Shown here: positions 14,131-23,356 of the stretch, piece by piece | Layout: every line of letters begins with the position of its first letter | Numbering within the stretch: the stretch's first letter is position 1 | NCBI RefSeq assembly: GCF_012933465.1 | Contig: NZ_JABBND010000003.1 | Location: 124,001 to 188,000 of the forward strand | Reading direction: 5' to 3' | Origin: Actinomycetospora sp. TBRC 11914 | Lineage (GTDB): Bacteria > Actinomycetota > Actinomycetes > Mycobacteriales > Pseudonocardiaceae | Length of the DNA: 64,000 nucleotides | Made by a program: the position numbers and the translations under genes | The notes under the pieces: model-generated | Database searches by the model: none | The model's input: only the letters and a program-made list of their open reading frames with translations | Told to the model about the DNA's origin: nothing

Positions 14131-14183
14131 ATGGGTGTGGCTTTTCGGACGTTCAGCGTCTGCGATGCGACACCGCTGACAGC
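14131..14183 (-). repeat. 53-bp dispersed repeat, copy A
   Basis: On the minus strand it begins GCTGTCAGCGGTGTCGCATC and ends AAAGCCACACCCAT. It is 46 of 53 identical to copy B at 19657. It covers the last codons and stop of pxpC and the gap before the VOC gene, so the C-terminal LSAVSHRRR of PxpC is encoded by the repeat. Confidence 0.8.
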
Positions 14184-15055
14184 CCCACCCGCCGGAACCG
14201 CACCGTCGACCCCGGCCGGGCCTGCCCCGCGCGGTCGGTGTCGGCGTCGAGCACCACACCGATCACGGGGTAGCCCCCGGTCACCGGGTGGTCGGCGAGG
14301 AACACCGTCGGGCGCCCGGACGGCGGGACCTGCACGCTCCCCCGGATCACCCCTTCGCTGGGCAGCTCGGCGCCCTCGCGCTCGGCCGTGCGGGCGAGCT
14401 CGGGGCCGTCGAGCCGGAACCCGACGCGGTTGGCGTCCTCGGTCACCGTCCACGCGGTGCGCAGGAAGGTCGCGAGGGCCGCGTCGGTGAACCAGTCGTC
14501 GCGCGGGCCCGGCACCACCCCGAGCACGACCTCCCCCGCGAGCCCGGCCTCCGGGGCGACGTCGACCGACGGCACCGGCGACGACGGCGGCACCCCCACC
14601 GGCAGCTCCGCACCCGCCCCGAGGACCGGCGGACCGAGGCCGGCCACGGTGTCGGTGGCCCGGCTGCCCAGCACCGGGTCCACCGCGAGCCCGCCGCGCA
14701 CGGCGACGTAGGTCCGCAGGCCGCTCGGCGGTGTCCCCAGCCGTACCTCCGCCCCGGCGGGCACGACGACGGCCCGGTGCAGGTCGCCGGGCCGCTCCCC
14801 GACCGTGACCGGGACCGGCGCGCCCGTCAGCGCCACCACGCTCGTCGTCGTCACCCGGAACCCCAGGCCTCCGAAGGTCACCTCGAGACCCGCCGCGGCC
14901 TCGTCGTTGCCGACGAGCCGGTTGGCCCGCCGCAGCGCCGCGCGGTCGGCCGCCCCGGAGACCCCGACGCCGAGGTCGGCGCGGCCCGGCCGCCCGGTCA
15001 CGTCCTGCACCGTGCACAGCGGGCCGGGCGCGGTGACCGTCAGCCACCCGCTCAT
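14153..15055 (-). CDS. pxpC: 5-oxoprolinase subunit C (biotin-dependent carboxyltransferase fold, KipA-like)
   Basis: With PxpB (and PxpA) it forms the bacterial ATP-dependent 5-oxoprolinase, which opens pyroglutamate to glutamate. The 300-residue protein has the KipA/urea-amidolyase-type domain: LCTVQDVTGRPGRADLGV at the start, the SGAADRAALRRANRLVGN helix and the DHPVTGGYPVIGVV motif near the end. It overlaps pxpB by ATGA, so the two are translationally coupled. The normal C-terminal tail appears to have been replaced by residues read from a dispersed repeat. pxpA is not in this operon or anywhere in the window. Confidence 0.92.
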   Translation of the reverse strand: MSGWLTVTAPGPLCTVQDVTGRPGRADLGVGVSGAADRAALRRANRLVGNDEAAAGLEVTFGGLGFRVTTTSVVALTGAPVPVTVGERPGDLHRAVVVPAGAEVRLGTPPSGLRTYVAVRGGLAVDPVLGSRATDTVAGLGPPVLGAGAELPVGVPPSSPVPSVDVAPEAGLAGEVVLGVVPGPRDDWFTDAALATFLRTAWTVTEDANRVGFRLDGPELARTAEREGAELPSEGVIRGSVQVPPSGRPTVFLADHPVTGGYPVIGVVLDADTDRAGQARPGSTVRFRRVGLSAVSHRRR

Positions 15056-19174: not shown

Positions 19175-19209
19175 TCCCGACCGGATCGTCCGCACCGAGG
19201 GGGAACACC

Positions 19210-19644
19210 ATGAGCACCACCGTCACCGAGCACCCGAACGTCACCGCGCTCCTCGAGGCCTTCGCCGCCCTCGGCGAGGGCGACGTCGGACCGAGCGAGG
19301 CGCTGATGACCGAGGACTTCGTCGTGGTCAACCACGACAACGGCGCCGGCGACCGGCACCTCGTCGAGGGCCGGGACGCGTTCCTCGGGTTCCTGGCGGG
19401 CTGGGCGGAGTTCTTCGAGGGCACGTGGGCGCAGCGGCCGCTGGGCATCTTCGGCGACGACGACCACCTGGTCATGCTCGTCCACGAGACCGGGCGCCGC
19501 GGCGACGCCGTGTTCGACAACCGGGCCGTCTACGTCATCGAGGTGCGCGACGGCCGCTGGATCCGGATGGACACCTACGACCGCGACCGGGAGGCCAACG
19601 CCGCCTTCTGGGACCAGGTGGGGGTCAGCGGGCCTCCGCGGTGA
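19210..19644 (+). CDS. SnoaL/NTF2-like fold protein
   Basis: A 144-residue protein of the SnoaL-like cone fold: an N-terminal helix ([16 protein letters not shown]), then [17 protein letters not shown], and C-terminal strands ending in [18 protein letters not shown]. Such proteins are small hydrolases, isomerases or ligand binders; no specific function can be given. The ATG has GGGGGAA upstream and the promoter region holds a palindrome. It is convergent with the dynamin-like gene, with copy B of the 53-bp repeat between them. Confidence 0.8.
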
Positions 19645-19656
19645 GGGGACACCGGC

Positions 19657-19709
19657 GCTGTCAGCGGTGTCGCATCGCAGACATCGAGCGTCCGGAAAGC
19701 CACACTCAC
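19657..19709 (+). repeat. 53-bp dispersed repeat, copy B
   Basis: Begins GCTGTCAGCGGTGTCGCATC, followed by GCAGAC, and ends AAAGCCACACTCAC. The first 26 bases are identical to copy A. It sits in the 81-bp gap between two convergent genes and codes for nothing. Confidence 0.8.
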
Positions 19710-19725
19710 GACGACCGGTGCTCGG

Positions 19726-21360
19726 TCAGGACGCGGCGAGCTGCGGCGACTCGCGCCCGGCGCGGCGCCGGAGGTCGTCCAGGTCGGCGAGGTGAGCCTC
19801 GAGCTCGGCGACGCGCTCGTGGTCGGCGGGACTCCCCCCGCCGCCCTCGCCGGCCACCCGCACCGCCTCGGCCGCGGCCCGCAGGCGCTCGTCGTTGATC
19901 GCGGTGAAGTGGTCGCGCAACGTCCGGTGGACGGCGCGAAGCTGGGCCCGCTGGTGGTCGCCGGCCCGGAAGTTGGCCTCGTCGAGGAGCTTCGCGGCCG
20001 TGGCGCGACCCTCCGCCATCCGGCGCTCGCGGATGTTCTTCCGGTCCTCGACGTAGGTGAACACCCCCAGCAGGACGCCGGCGCCCACCGAGTAGACGCT
20101 GATCAGGCTCAGACCCGCGAGGCTGGTCAGCACCCCGACCATCAGGATGCCGCCGTACGAGCCCCGCAGGCTGTTGACGGCGCGGGAGACGACGCCGCCG
20201 CCGGTGCCTGGGACGTCCATGGCGGCGGCCGGCAGCAGCGTCGTCGCGTCGGGGTCGGTGAGGACGATGCGGGGCCGGGTGACCCCGACCGTCGCCCCGT
20301 CGGCGGTCCCGGCGAGCGCCCGGGCGACCGTCTTCGCGAGTGCCGTCGCGCGCTCCCGGACCATCGCGTGATCGCCGCGGACGGCCTCCTCGACCCGCGC
20401 CCGGACCGCGGCGTCGAAGCCCGCCCAGTCCTTGAGCGCGCGGCCGGAGAGGATTTCGGCGTCGGCGAAGGCGAGCACCTCACGCAACCGCTGGCGCAGG
20501 TCGAAGTCGGCCTGGGCGCCCAGCTCGGCCATGCCGTCGGAGAGCGCGATCTGCCAGTTCGCGGACAACTGCTGGCAGCGGTCCAGCTCGGCGATCGCTC
20601 GCCGCTGCCGCTCGGCCGGCGAGGAGGCACCGCGGGGCAGACGGTCGAGCTCGGCGGTGAAGGCGGCCGCGAGCTGGTCGAGCGCGCCGTGCACCTCGGC
20701 GAGCACGGCCGCACGCAGCCGGGGCGCCATCGCCGTGTCGACCCGGTCGCGCAGGACCTCGAGCAGCTGCGGGATCCCCGAGGCGATGAGCGCGGACCGG
20801 TCGTCGTGGCGCCGCCCGCGCTCGCACTGTGCCGCCGACACCGGCAGCAGCGGGATCGGCGGGTCGTCGATCCCGGCCGAGCGCAGCGCCCGGCGATCGG
20901 CCTGCAGCACCAGGGTGAGGTCCTCGCAGGCGTCGTGGTCGGCGAGCACGCCGACCACGGCGACGTCCTGGGCGCGCAGCCGCGTGAGCGCCGCGAGCTC
21001 GCCCGGCCCGTACCCGGCGCGGGCGTCGGTGACGAAGAGGACCACGTCGACTTGCTCGGTCAGCGGCCGACGGTCCTGGCCGTGCCGGCCGGGGACGTCG
21101 CCGAACGACGCCCCCGGCAGCCACGCGGCCGAAACCCCGCGCACCGCCTCGACGAGGGCCCTCGTCCGGGCGGTGCCCTCGGCGTCCGGGCGGCCGCAGA
21201 CCCCGACCCGAAGTGGCCGTCCGGTCATCCACGACCGGGCCAGCGCGAGCCGCTCGACCAGGTCCGTCCGGCCGGCCAGCGCGGCCATCCGGTCGGTCCG
21301 CTCGAGCAGTCCCACCAGCTCGGCGCTCCCGAGGATCGGGGTCCAGGGCAGCACGGACAC
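19726..21360 (-). CDS. Dynamin-like membrane protein with a degenerate GTPase domain (IniC/IniA-like)
   Basis: A 544-residue protein arranged like bacterial dynamin-like proteins: G-domain-like region (about 45-190), long helical stalk (about 200-370), a membrane hairpin (GGILMVGVLTSLAGLSLISV and GVLLGVFTYV, about 395-430), then a returning coiled coil. The P-loop position reads GRPDAEGT and lacks the Lys of GxxxxGK[ST]. The G3 region is VVLFVTDARAG and G4 is ADHD in place of TKxD; the LPVSA motif remains. GTP hydrolysis is therefore doubtful. GGGAGG precedes the GTG. It is 31 bp downstream of a His/Thr-rich gene, recalling iniB-iniA-iniC of mycobacteria, envelope-stress genes. Confidence 0.78.
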   Translation of the reverse strand: MSVLPWTPILGSAELVGLLERTDRMAALAGRTDLVERLALARSWMTGRPLRVGVCGRPDAEGTARTRALVEAVRGVSAAWLPGASFGDVPGRHGQDRRPLTEQVDVVLFVTDARAGYGPGELAALTRLRAQDVAVVGVLADHDACEDLTLVLQADRRALRSAGIDDPPIPLLPVSAAQCERGRRHDDRSALIASGIPQLLEVLRDRVDTAMAPRLRAAVLAEVHGALDQLAAAFTAELDRLPRGASSPAERQRRAIAELDRCQQLSANWQIALSDGMAELGAQADFDLRQRLREVLAFADAEILSGRALKDWAGFDAAVRARVEEAVRGDHAMVRERATALAKTVARALAGTADGATVGVTRPRIVLTDPDATTLLPAAAMDVPGTGGGVVSRAVNSLRGSYGGILMVGVLTSLAGLSLISVYSVGAGVLLGVFTYVEDRKNIRERRMAEGRATAAKLLDEANFRAGDHQRAQLRAVHRTLRDHFTAINDERLRAAAEAVRVAGEGGGGSPADHERVAELEAHLADLDDLRRRAGRESPQLAAS

Positions 21361-21391
21361 GGTGTCCTCCCTCGTACTCGCGTCGCGCCGG

Positions 21392-22957
21392 TCAGTGGCC
21401 GACGAGGTGGGTGTGGTCGGTGGTCGTGTGGTGGGTCGCGTCGGTGGTCGTCACGGCCGTCGTGTCGTGGCTGGTGAGACCGCTCGAGAGGCTGGTGCTC
21501 GTCGAGCTCTCGGTGCCCGTGGTCGCCGTGGTGGTCGCGGCGGGTGCCGTGGTGTGGGTGGTCGGCGTGGCCTGGGCCGTCGCCGTCGTGTGGGCGGTGG
21601 ACGTGGTGGTCGTCGACGCCGCGTGGGTGGCGGACGACGTCGTGGCGGCGGTGTGGTCGGTGGACGTGGTGCCCGTGGCGGTCGTCGTGCCGGCCTGGGT
21701 CGCGGCGGACCCGGTGGCCGAGGTCGCGGTGTGGTCGGTCGAGGCCGTGGCCGTGGTCGTGCCGCCGGTCGTGGTCGTGCCGCCGGTCGTCGGCGTCGCC
21801 GTGTGGGCGGTGGTGCCGGTCGTGCTGCCGGTCGTGGTCGTCGTGGCGGCGGCGCCCGGGGCGGTGGTGGCGGTGCCGGCGGCGGTCGTGGTCGTGGCGG
21901 CGCCGAAGTCGGCCTGGGGGGCGCCGGTCGTGTGGGTCGTGGTGGTGGTGTGGGTGCTGCCGGACGACGCCGTGGTCGCGGTGGTCGCGGCGTGCGTGAC
22001 GGTGTGGGTCAGCGGCTGCGAGGCGGCCGAGTGGGAGCGGGCGTCCACGGGCGTGACCGCGACCGCGGCGGCCGACGAGGCCGCGGCCCCGTTCGCGGCG
22101 GTGTTCTGCACGACGGCGCGCTCACCGGCGCCGGCGGCCGAGGAGAGCGAGGTGGCGGCGGCCGGCGTCGTCGTCGGGCTGGTGGTGAGGGGCGTGGCGC
22201 TGCCCTGTCCGAAGCTCCACTGACCGAGGGAGCCCTGGCCGGCGGAGGTCCCGTCGTGCCGGACGTCGCCGTGGCCCGAGGTGGTGCCGGGTCGCGTCCA
22301 GGAGGAGCCCTGGTGGCCGAGGTCGTGCGTGGTGGAGACGCGCTGGGCGGGGTCGTGGTGTGCGCCGGAGCCGCCGAGGTCGTGCTGCGGCGCCCCCGCC
22401 CACCCGCCGTGCGCGGCGGATGCGTGCGACGAGTCGGTGCGGTGCTGGTCGGTGCGGTGCTGCTCGCCCCGGTGCTGCTTACCCCGGTGCTCGTCGGCCC
22501 GGTGCTGCTCGCCCCGGTGCTGCTCACCCCGGTGCTCGTCGGCCCGGTGCTGCTCGCTCCGGTGCTCGTCGACGCGGGGGCTCCAGGCCGAGTGGCCGTC
22601 GGCCCGCAGGGTGCGGTGCTCGTCCGCCGCATGGCGCACCGTCGTCGGGTGCTGCGGTCCGGACCGGTGCACGGCGCTCGGGACGGGCCCGGCCCATCCG
22701 TGGTGCTCGTCGGCGCGGTGGTGCTCGGTGCGGTGGTGACGGCCGTGGCCGTCGCGCTCGCGGTGCTCCTGCGGCCGCTCGGACGGGCGGCCGTGCTCGT
22801 CCCGGACGTGCTGCTCCGGGCGCTCCGGCCGGGACGGGGGCCGCCCGCCGTCGGGGGCGCCCTGGTCCGGGCGCGGCGTCGCGACCGCGTCGGGGCGCGG
22901 GTCGCGGTCGAGCAGGGCGGTGGCGGGACGTGCTCCGGCGAACGACTCCTGGGACAC
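21392..22957 (-). CDS. Low-complexity His-rich/Thr-rich protein upstream of the dynamin-like gene
   Basis: A 521-residue protein that I do not recognise. The first third is charged and His-rich, with imperfect five-residue units such as HRGEQ, HRADE and HRTDQ. The middle is Ser/Gly-rich. The last 230 residues are dominated by Thr, Ala and His (TTTTTHTT, ASTDHTAT). There is no cysteine, signal peptide or transmembrane helix. The start is GTG 22957, with GAAGGAG 9 nt upstream. The frame has almost only G or C at third positions, so it is truly coding. It shares an operon with the dynamin-like gene, the position held by the equally low-complexity IniB in mycobacteria. Metal binding or a scaffold role are guesses. 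Confidence 0.7.
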   Translation of the reverse strand: MSQESFAGARPATALLDRDPRPDAVATPRPDQGAPDGGRPPSRPERPEQHVRDEHGRPSERPQEHRERDGHGRHHRTEHHRADEHHGWAGPVPSAVHRSGPQHPTTVRHAADEHRTLRADGHSAWSPRVDEHRSEQHRADEHRGEQHRGEQHRADEHRGKQHRGEQHRTDQHRTDSSHASAAHGGWAGAPQHDLGGSGAHHDPAQRVSTTHDLGHQGSSWTRPGTTSGHGDVRHDGTSAGQGSLGQWSFGQGSATPLTTSPTTTPAAATSLSSAAGAGERAVVQNTAANGAAASSAAAVAVTPVDARSHSAASQPLTHTVTHAATTATTASSGSTHTTTTTHTTGAPQADFGAATTTTAAGTATTAPGAAATTTTTGSTTGTTAHTATPTTGGTTTTGGTTTATASTDHTATSATGSAATQAGTTTATGTTSTDHTAATTSSATHAASTTTTSTAHTTATAQATPTTHTTAPAATTTATTGTESSTSTSLSSGLTSHDTTAVTTTDATHHTTTDHTHLVGH

Positions 22958-23308
22958 GGCGGTGGCTCCTTCGGCCTCGTGGGGCCACCGCATCGGCGCG
23001 CGACAGCAGGGACGCGCGACCGGGACCTCGGTGGACCGCCGCTGCGACACCAGCGGCCTCCGCGCATGGCCGTGCTGATCGGCGTGCGCGCCGGGCGGAC
23101 CCGGGCCCGGTACCTGTCCGTCCCGGGCGATGGGGCAACGATGGGCCCACCCGCTGTGCGCCTGCTGTGCCGATCATGAAGGCTGTCGATGACCGAGGGT
23201 CACGCGACGGGGCACCCGACATCCGCCGCTGGGCCGGTCCGGTGAGGCTCCCGGGCACGACGACCGCGGTGCGCGACCTGCCGGGACGGAGCGCCCCGGA
23301 CAGACGCC
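22958..23308. other. 351-bp region without a recognised gene
   Basis: Lies between the His/Thr-rich gene start and the sdhB terminator. It should hold the promoter of the His/Thr-dynamin operon. No clear -10 or operator was found, and no reading frame here looks like a gene. Confidence 0.5.
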
Positions 23309-23342
23309 GGGGGCCACCACGCCTGCTCGCGTGGTGGCCCCC
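23309..23342 (-). terminator. Terminator hairpin of the sdh operon
   Basis: Perfect 14-bp stem GGGGGCCACCACGC / GCGTGGTGGCCCCC with a 6-nt loop, 14 bp downstream of the sdhB stop. No U-tract follows. Confidence 0.75.
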
Positions 23343-23356
23343 GGGGGTCGAGCGGG

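Follow-up and report, generated by a model that had tools for sequence, protein, structure and literature searches.

The 64,000-nucleotide stretch of the Actinomycetospora sp. TBRC 11914 genome analyzed here (termed the window; coordinates are positions in it) carries a pair of genes on the minus strand, one encoding a dynamin-like protein and the other, directly upstream, a low-complexity protein termed the partner. As judged from its motifs, the window dynamin is IniA by descent but no IniA-type GTPase. The phylogenetic analyses place its amino acid sequence in a clade of IniA-type dynamins separate from the sampled IniA proteins bearing a GKS/T P-loop. We sorted the members of this clade by the absence of the P-loop lysine (K49 in IniA) and term it the K-less clade; it is represented by 105 alignment rows, duplicates included.

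The pair comprises a 521-codon partner gene (22957 to 21392, from a GTG at 22957 to the stop at 21392) and, after a gap of 31 nucleotides, a 544-codon gene for the putative pseudo-GTPase dynamin (21360 to 19726, also with a GTG start), and an initial annotation of the window had given the extent of the pair exactly. All features of the two genes described below are on the minus strand. Shine-Dalgarno-like sequences precede the dynamin start (GAGGGAGGA; 21365..21373) and the partner start (GAAGGAG, read from the sequence; 22966..22972). The guanine-cytosine (GC) contents at the first, second, and third codon positions were 0.67, 0.71, and 0.97 in the partner gene and 0.80, 0.53, and 0.96 in the dynamin gene. 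A chance low-complexity frame was ruled out as the origin of the partner by the codon-position GC, which is no more than suggestive in so repetitive a sequence, and by the motifs shared in the same frame with other partners. Neither protein exceeded the cut-off in the Pfam and NCBIfam scans; that of Pfam Dynamin_N was reached by one Nocardia and one Rhodococcus member of the clade.

Fold and GTP site of the window dynamin

The window dynamin was found to be homologous to IniA with an E-value of 8e-43 (2.8e-155 for the profile), and its predicted model matched the IniA structures 6j72 and 6j73 over 456 and 436 residues, respectively. Both the full-length homology and the fold of GTPase domain, neck, and trunk were thus found, which identifies the protein as IniA-type by descent. 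The stalk and the hydrophobic membrane hairpin, regarded as retained in the initial annotation, were recovered in both the sequence and the model, and the G domain is predicted to keep a folded core. The hairpin starts with RGSYGG (residues 399–404; 20149..20166), a motif shared with IniA and invariant, or almost so, in the structure alignment, which included 39 of 81 possible rows. Among the PADLOC models, LeoBC dynamin matched the window dynamin (E-value of 2.1e-7) and a Nocardia member of the clade (6.9e-14), which we read as general dynamin likeness, and none matched the partner.

We compared the GTP site using the IniA residue numbering (K46, K49, S50, R63, T70, D141, K200, and D202) of PMC6715688. 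The G1 motif (P-loop) is reduced to GRPDAEGT (residues 56–63; 21172..21195), in which K46, K49, and S50 are replaced by D, G, and T, respectively. G3 is retained as DVPG (residues 88–91; 21088..21099) with D141, and the G4 remnant is ADHD (residues 140–143; 20932..20943), in which K200 is replaced by D and D202 is retained. Between G1 and G3 (21100..21171), strand beta2 and switch I, the region of R63 and T70 in IniA, are gone, as seen from both the length and the model. The two motifs are 18 residues apart, as opposed to 78–101 residues in the 39 rows of GKS/T-type IniA, and the predicted model runs from beta1 (51–55) through alpha1 (60–80) to the next strand at 85–88. Among the hallmarks of an IniA-type GTPase, DxPG of G3 was found, whereas Lys49/Ser50 of G1, Thr70 of G2/switch I, and [TN]KxD of G4 were not. 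The lysine-free P-loop and ADHD had both been read correctly in the initial annotation, and the residue comparison agrees with its view of a probably degenerate GTPase site; the shortened switch I had escaped it.

The loop equivalent to the lipid-interacting loop of IniA is GVLLGVFTYVED (residues 428–439; 20044..20079), in which R488 and K489, both required for lipid binding by IniA (PMC6715688), are replaced by V and F. The replacement loop is less charged than that of IniA, and the window dynamin has no basic loop in the sense of IniA. K489 is absent in all 105 rows of the clade, as opposed to its presence in 33 of the 39 GKS/T rows.

The K-less clade and its partner gene

At an E-value of 1e-50 or lower, 11 of the 390 genomes of the family matched at 15 places, in none of which the lysine was found. 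The initial annotation had allowed for a sequence error with an intact GTPase site in close orthologues; no such site was found at these places, and an error or a frameshift behind the missing lysine is ruled out, given its absence from the nearest relatives as well. In the order, 73 of 397 genomes matched (E ≤ 1e-55), and the 29 other loci fetched included 10 K-less (Nocardia and Rhodococcus) and 19 GKS versions; in the class, 38 of 394 genomes matched (E ≤ 1e-70), with three K-less (Nocardia) and 27 GKS versions among the 30 loci fetched. The named loci, the best 80 of 301 relatives, were of Nocardia (63), Rhodococcus/Rhodococcoides (four), and Pseudonocardia or other Pseudonocardiales/Actinobacteria (13), and all 80 lacked the lysine; a GKS member nested in the clade is possible among the other 221. 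The matches in the order, class, and clade-genome searches were read only where fetched as loci, and a GKS member is possible among the rest as well. The window's genome, which is of the same family as Pseudonocardia, possesses two K-less copies, which are 56% identical to each other (the P-loop of the second being SAGAGSGS), and 17 other genomes of the genus, three of them less than 90% complete, gave no match at E ≤ 1e-50.

Position 49 in the 105 rows was occupied by M (77), A (13), V (6), L (4), I (2), G (1), T (1), or a gap (1). T70 was present in a single row, as opposed to 38 of the 39 GKS/T rows. The G3 Asp (D141) was kept in 98 rows, K200 in 103, and D202 in 104; K200 was lost only in the two copies of the window's genome, and the other 103 rows keep both K200 and D202. 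Judging from these residues, most of the sampled rows are GMS proteins with intact G3 and G4. In the Pseudonocardiaceae rows, and in the Rhodococcus row for which it was measured, the segment containing switch I is reduced or lost (18–70 residues versus 78–101); in the Nocardia rows (79 residues) it is not. R63 is replaced by Ala in 78 of the 105 rows, although Arg occurs in merely six of the 39 GKS/T-type IniAs.

In the first tree, 25 K-less and 43 GKS/T rows (39 distinct) were split by a single branch with a support of 100 in the Shimodaira-Hasegawa-like approximate likelihood ratio test (SH-aLRT). This tree was without five GKS rows (L019 and L022–L025), and twelve further loci, all GKS/T, were in no tree. 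The split received a support of 100/100 in a thinned set of 22 K-less and 36 GKS/T rows and appeared in 100% of 200 bootstrap trees. The same split was recovered with an SH-aLRT of 100 from the stalk after removing the G domain (88 versus 39 distinct rows). With 11 IniC sequences as the root, the K-less proteins fell within IniA as a clade, beside the GKS/T-type IniAs (support of 93 for the pairing), and the loss of the lysine is thus derived.

The ratios of nonsynonymous to synonymous substitution rates (dN/dS; Nei-Gojobori method, NG86) calculated for seven pairs of close relatives were 0.05–0.42 in the G domain and 0.04–0.34 in the stalk, with G-domain values of 0.05–0.09 in three Nocardia pairs. 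Since these values indicate purifying selection, the clade genes are maintained in the relatives; for the window copy, no relative is close enough for such a comparison. Of the Nocardia loci, 37 have an upstream sequence of 3.5 kb or more, and in 24 of these lepA was found upstream of the K-less iniA (seen in Nocardia loci such as L100 and L190), a linkage that would fit old vertical inheritance.

For the partner, 86 of the 89 distinct clade loci were scorable, having at least 700 nucleotides upstream on the contig. We searched near the estimated dynamin start for frames of at least 150 codons with low Arg and Cys content (the frame taken for the window being the whole open frame of 593 codons); this detector superseded a first one that had missed 19 loci. 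A low-complexity frame was found directly upstream of the dynamin gene in 83 of the 86 loci, ending within 129 nucleotides of the estimated start and, in 19 of the 83, overlapping it by 4 nucleotides. At the other three (L031, L064, and L132), the partner was visible by eye, with a larger gap or Arg content. The concern in the initial annotation that homologues of the two genes might never be adjacent is thus dispelled.

The composition of the window partner agrees with the initial description of a 521-residue, Cys-free protein with HR-type units followed by a Thr/Ala/His tract. It comprises 21.9% Thr, 16.1% Ala, 10.0% Gly, and 9.6% His, with a single Lys and no Met past the start, and its HRxxx pentad repeats are located mainly at residues 132–176 (22430..22564), ahead of the tract. 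The repeat content of the partners differs between genera with little in common, and a median of 62% of their residues are from five amino acids; from this composition, rather than from a disorder prediction, we infer that the partner is disordered. The N-terminal domain of IniB (NF038175) was detected in none of the 10 clade partners scanned, the window partner included (three of the 10 lacked the N terminus), and in all three IniB-like proteins upstream of GKS/T-type iniA used as controls. The Nocardia partner at L134 has collagen-like glycine-rich repeats, with matches to NCBIfam SclA/SclB below the cut-off.

The partners share a motif, TPx...SQPLxxxV, that is absent from 27 frames upstream of GKS/T-type iniA. 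In the window partner it reads TPVDARSHSAASQPLTHTV (residues 302–320; 21998..22054) and is a candidate docking motif. A hidden Markov model (HMM) of the motif trained on four Nocardia/Rhodococcus partners scored 13 of the 14 Pseudonocardiaceae partners (14.3 bits for the window) and none of the 27 control frames above its threshold, set at the 8.2 bits reached by the highest-scoring of 420 shuffles of Pseudonocardiaceae partners. The typical Nocardia partners bear a variant, TPLQTTIQPDAA..PIANV, with a lower score. A second motif of the window partner, APQADFG (residues 346–352; 21902..21922), follows the pattern APxADxG, which was found in 13 of 14 Pseudonocardiaceae, four of four Rhodococcus-type, and three of 68 Nocardia partners; the corresponding counts for the pattern TPx..QPL were 13 of 14, two of four, and 40 of 68. 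Both patterns, composed after inspecting the sequences, were absent from the 27 controls. A C-terminal GLSSGL-type motif, present in 3/14, 0/4, and 6/68 partners and 1/27 controls and not in the window partner, was not used.

The gene directly downstream of the K-less iniA was iniC in 14 of the 89 distinct loci, and all 14 iniC genes encode a GKS P-loop. The iniC-bearing loci were all seven of the Pseudonocardia-type group with a Met/Leu P-loop, four of the Rhodococcus type, and three of Nocardia. Three-gene operons of partner, K-less IniA, and intact IniC (L098, L062–L066, and similar) thus combine one degenerate dynamin with one bearing the P-loop. Four iniC genes of K-less operons formed a group of their own with an SH-aLRT of 100. 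No iniC was detected at the window locus, in the rest of the group of eight to which it belongs, or at the other Nocardia loci, and neither of the two cassettes in the window's genome is adjoined by iniC; the initial annotation had noted a single dynamin at the locus. Its comparison with iniB-iniA-iniC is well founded and is extended by the loci with an intact iniC, which make the pair resemble an iniBAC-like operon in reduced form. In the control GKS/T-type loci, iniC was constantly found (14 of 14), and the window's genome carries three GKS/T-type iniA genes elsewhere (L033–L035), each followed by iniC. At E ≤ 1e-70, 16 of 21 clade genomes also encode an IniA-like protein with a GKS/T P-loop, and one clade genome (87% complete) showed no IniA-like protein.

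The pair is flanked by frdB and miaB (these and the following gene names were read from the sequence). The interval between the two (19645–23356) is a variable slot, occupied by other genes in the four genomes of the same genus examined: an ATP-binding cassette transporter and two-component genes in three and a dihydrofolate reductase-like gene in one. The dynamin gene and a SnoaL-like open reading frame (19206–19644, plus strand) converge. A dispersed intergenic-type repeat of approximately 50 bp, resembling repetitive extragenic palindromes or miniature inverted-repeat transposable elements, lies at 19654–19708 (plus strand) and 14132–14186 (minus strand) and has 42 matches in the genome at E ≤ 1e-3, itself counted; two copies of its 21-base core are present in the window, versus zero expected from shuffles. 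The search for sigma-70-type promoters and terminators found none and is uninformative here.

A possible GTP-independent scaffold and its alternatives

We favor, with slightly better than even confidence, the interpretation that the pseudo-GTPase IniA is a GTP-independent membrane scaffold or tether organized by its disordered partner. Since the pair is preserved in related soil bacteria, the GTP-free scaffold looks like a product of selection and not of mere breakage. IniA needs no nucleotide to bind lipids or to tether and deform membranes, its tethering is weakened by GTP, and hydrolysis is needed only for continuous cutting; liposome binding, tethering, and puncta all persist in the S50A/R63A mutant (PMC6715688). 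Because IniA tethering requires no GTP and is weakened by it, a dynamin unable to use GTP would stay in the tethering or deforming state, and the window dynamin could work as a constitutive tether or a curvature scaffold. The partner would dock on the dynamin via TPx...SQPLxxxV and APxADxG and, once docked, set the place and manner of its assembly, replacing the control that GTP exerts on IniA. Where the operon also encodes an intact IniC GTPase (Rhodococcus, Pseudonocardia, and a few Nocardia), this enzyme may supply the nucleotide step; the pair in the window's genome would either function by itself or contribute to one of the three GKS/T-type IniA/IniC pairs found elsewhere in that genome.

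Several points weigh against this interpretation. The loss of K49 alone is no proof of inactivity, since mutating K49 of IniA affected the GTPase activity only marginally, as opposed to the drastic effects of S50A and R63A (PMC6715688); the argument for inactivity rests on the loss of K49 combined with that of T70 and switch I and, in the window dynamin, also of K46 and G4. For the same reason, and because they keep S50, G3, G4, and often K46, the GMS members may have retained nucleotide binding or a slow turnover. As the basic residues of the lipid loop are also lost, membrane attachment by the mode of IniA is doubtful for the window dynamin; at a guess, the new loop may insert into the membrane, or the partner may carry the dynamin to it. 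Binding between partner and dynamin is itself a proposal drawn from the sequences. The motif hit at L064 covers the motif only in part, and L031 (6.8 bits) scored below the best shuffle. An HMM trained reversely on the Pseudonocardiaceae partners scored only eight of 62 Nocardia/Rhodococcus partners (seven distinct, four of the Rhodococcus type and three of Nocardia) higher than any of 620 shuffles. Finally, four Nocardia genomes showed only the K-less protein at E ≤ 1e-70, and the pairing with a GKS/T-type IniA is therefore not obligatory.

A less likely but possible alternative is that the clade represents a modified nucleotide switch, namely a slow or regulatory GTPase binding nucleotide, probably GDP, via G3/G4 and a P-loop with Met, and that only the two copies of the window's genome went further and lost G4. 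The near-universal retention of D141, K200, and D202 in the clade and the G-domain dN/dS of the three Nocardia pairs are consistent with such a switch, as are the nearly intact activity of the K49 mutants of IniA (PMC6715688) and the GDP-dependent interaction between GMS and GKS proteins of the vertebrate IRG family (PMC3042988). On the other hand, T70 is missing in 104 of the 105 rows, and switch I is shortened or deleted outside Nocardia in the rows described above; the Ala at R63, a residue of drastic effect in IniA, also argues against a switch, although the other IniAs seldom have Arg there.

The initial annotation had proposed that the histidine-rich partner could bind metal or condense; in this reading, the partner would be the effector and the dynamin an accessory. 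The His content and the HRxxx repeats of the window partner fit this idea, and 12 Pseudonocardiaceae partners contain 5.6–10.9% His. Nevertheless, the median is 2.8% in the other 71 partners, the repeats vary between genera, and the shared motifs hold no conserved His cluster; what is conserved are the short motifs. As the His content is not conserved, the idea is weak: we rejected metal binding as the conserved function of the partner and consider an effector role of this kind improbable. Least probable of all is a decaying duplicate or a pseudogene without function, which would suit the two copies in the window's genome being the most degenerate of the clade, the lack of matches in the 17 genomes of the same genus, and the variable frdB-miaB slot, but is at odds with the intact reading frames of both copies, the purifying dN/dS among the relatives, and the partner adjoining the dynamin across genera.

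Comparison with known systems

Compared with IniA of Mycobacterium (6j72/6j73), the window dynamin is alike in the whole-length homology, the layout of GTPase domain, neck, and trunk, RGSYGG with the hydrophobic hairpin, and G3, but differs in lacking K49, T70 together with switch I/beta2, K200 of G4, and R488/K489 of the lipid loop, and its partner lacks the IniB domain. Dynamins are defined by GTP hydrolysis coupled to membrane remodelling, and a clade that has lost key parts of the GTP site and kept the membrane machine with a partner is a natural test of which dynamin steps need GTP. The iniBAC operon likewise has a low-complexity gene directly upstream of the IniA homologue, and iniC follows in a subset of the clade loci; unlike that operon, the clade partners scanned lack NF038175, the clade IniA is K-less, and the cassettes of the window's genome have no iniC. 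IniB differs widely in size from one species to another, and what it does has been called unclear (PMC5760070). The clade bears on these enigmatic low-complexity IniB-type proteins, as the N-terminal domain is gone from its partners and a short conserved motif is a candidate for docking.

The literature searched, chiefly open-access, yielded no description of a K-less IniA, a bacterial GMS dynamin, or the partner family. Altogether, the window pair is an IniA-type dynamin by descent, in a variant with a degenerate GTPase site, together with its partner, and we found no earlier account of the clade. The clade loci with iniC would resemble Cj-DLP1/Cj-DLP2 of Campylobacter in pairing unequal dynamin subunits, but both Campylobacter subunits need the P-loop Lys for turnover (PMC6104087), whereas the clade subunit naturally lacks it.

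The vertebrate IRG GTPases offer a parallel in a natural subfamily with a Lys-to-Met change in the P-loop (GMS) beside intact GKS relatives (PMC3042988; PMC1297648). Within the IRG family, the change has been described as unique to three proteins, and the GMS proteins negatively regulate the GKS relatives in a GDP-dependent manner (PMC3042988; PMC1297648). The IRG GTPases belong to another GTPase family, and Met is found in most rows of the clade (77 of 105), but the P-loop of the window dynamin (GRPDAEGT) has gone beyond GMS. We entertain, as a speculation that we consider rather unlikely, that bacteria evolved a GMS/GKS division of labour among dynamins independently of IRG. The Lys-to-Met IniA would then be a catalytically silent partner or restraint of the intact GTPase IniC (or IniA) tuned by the disordered docking protein, and in the window's genome the silent subunit would have become independent of nucleotide as well as of IniC, as a GTP-free membrane scaffold run by its disordered partner. 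The parallel makes a general rule, that silent subunits restrain active dynamins, testable in bacteria.

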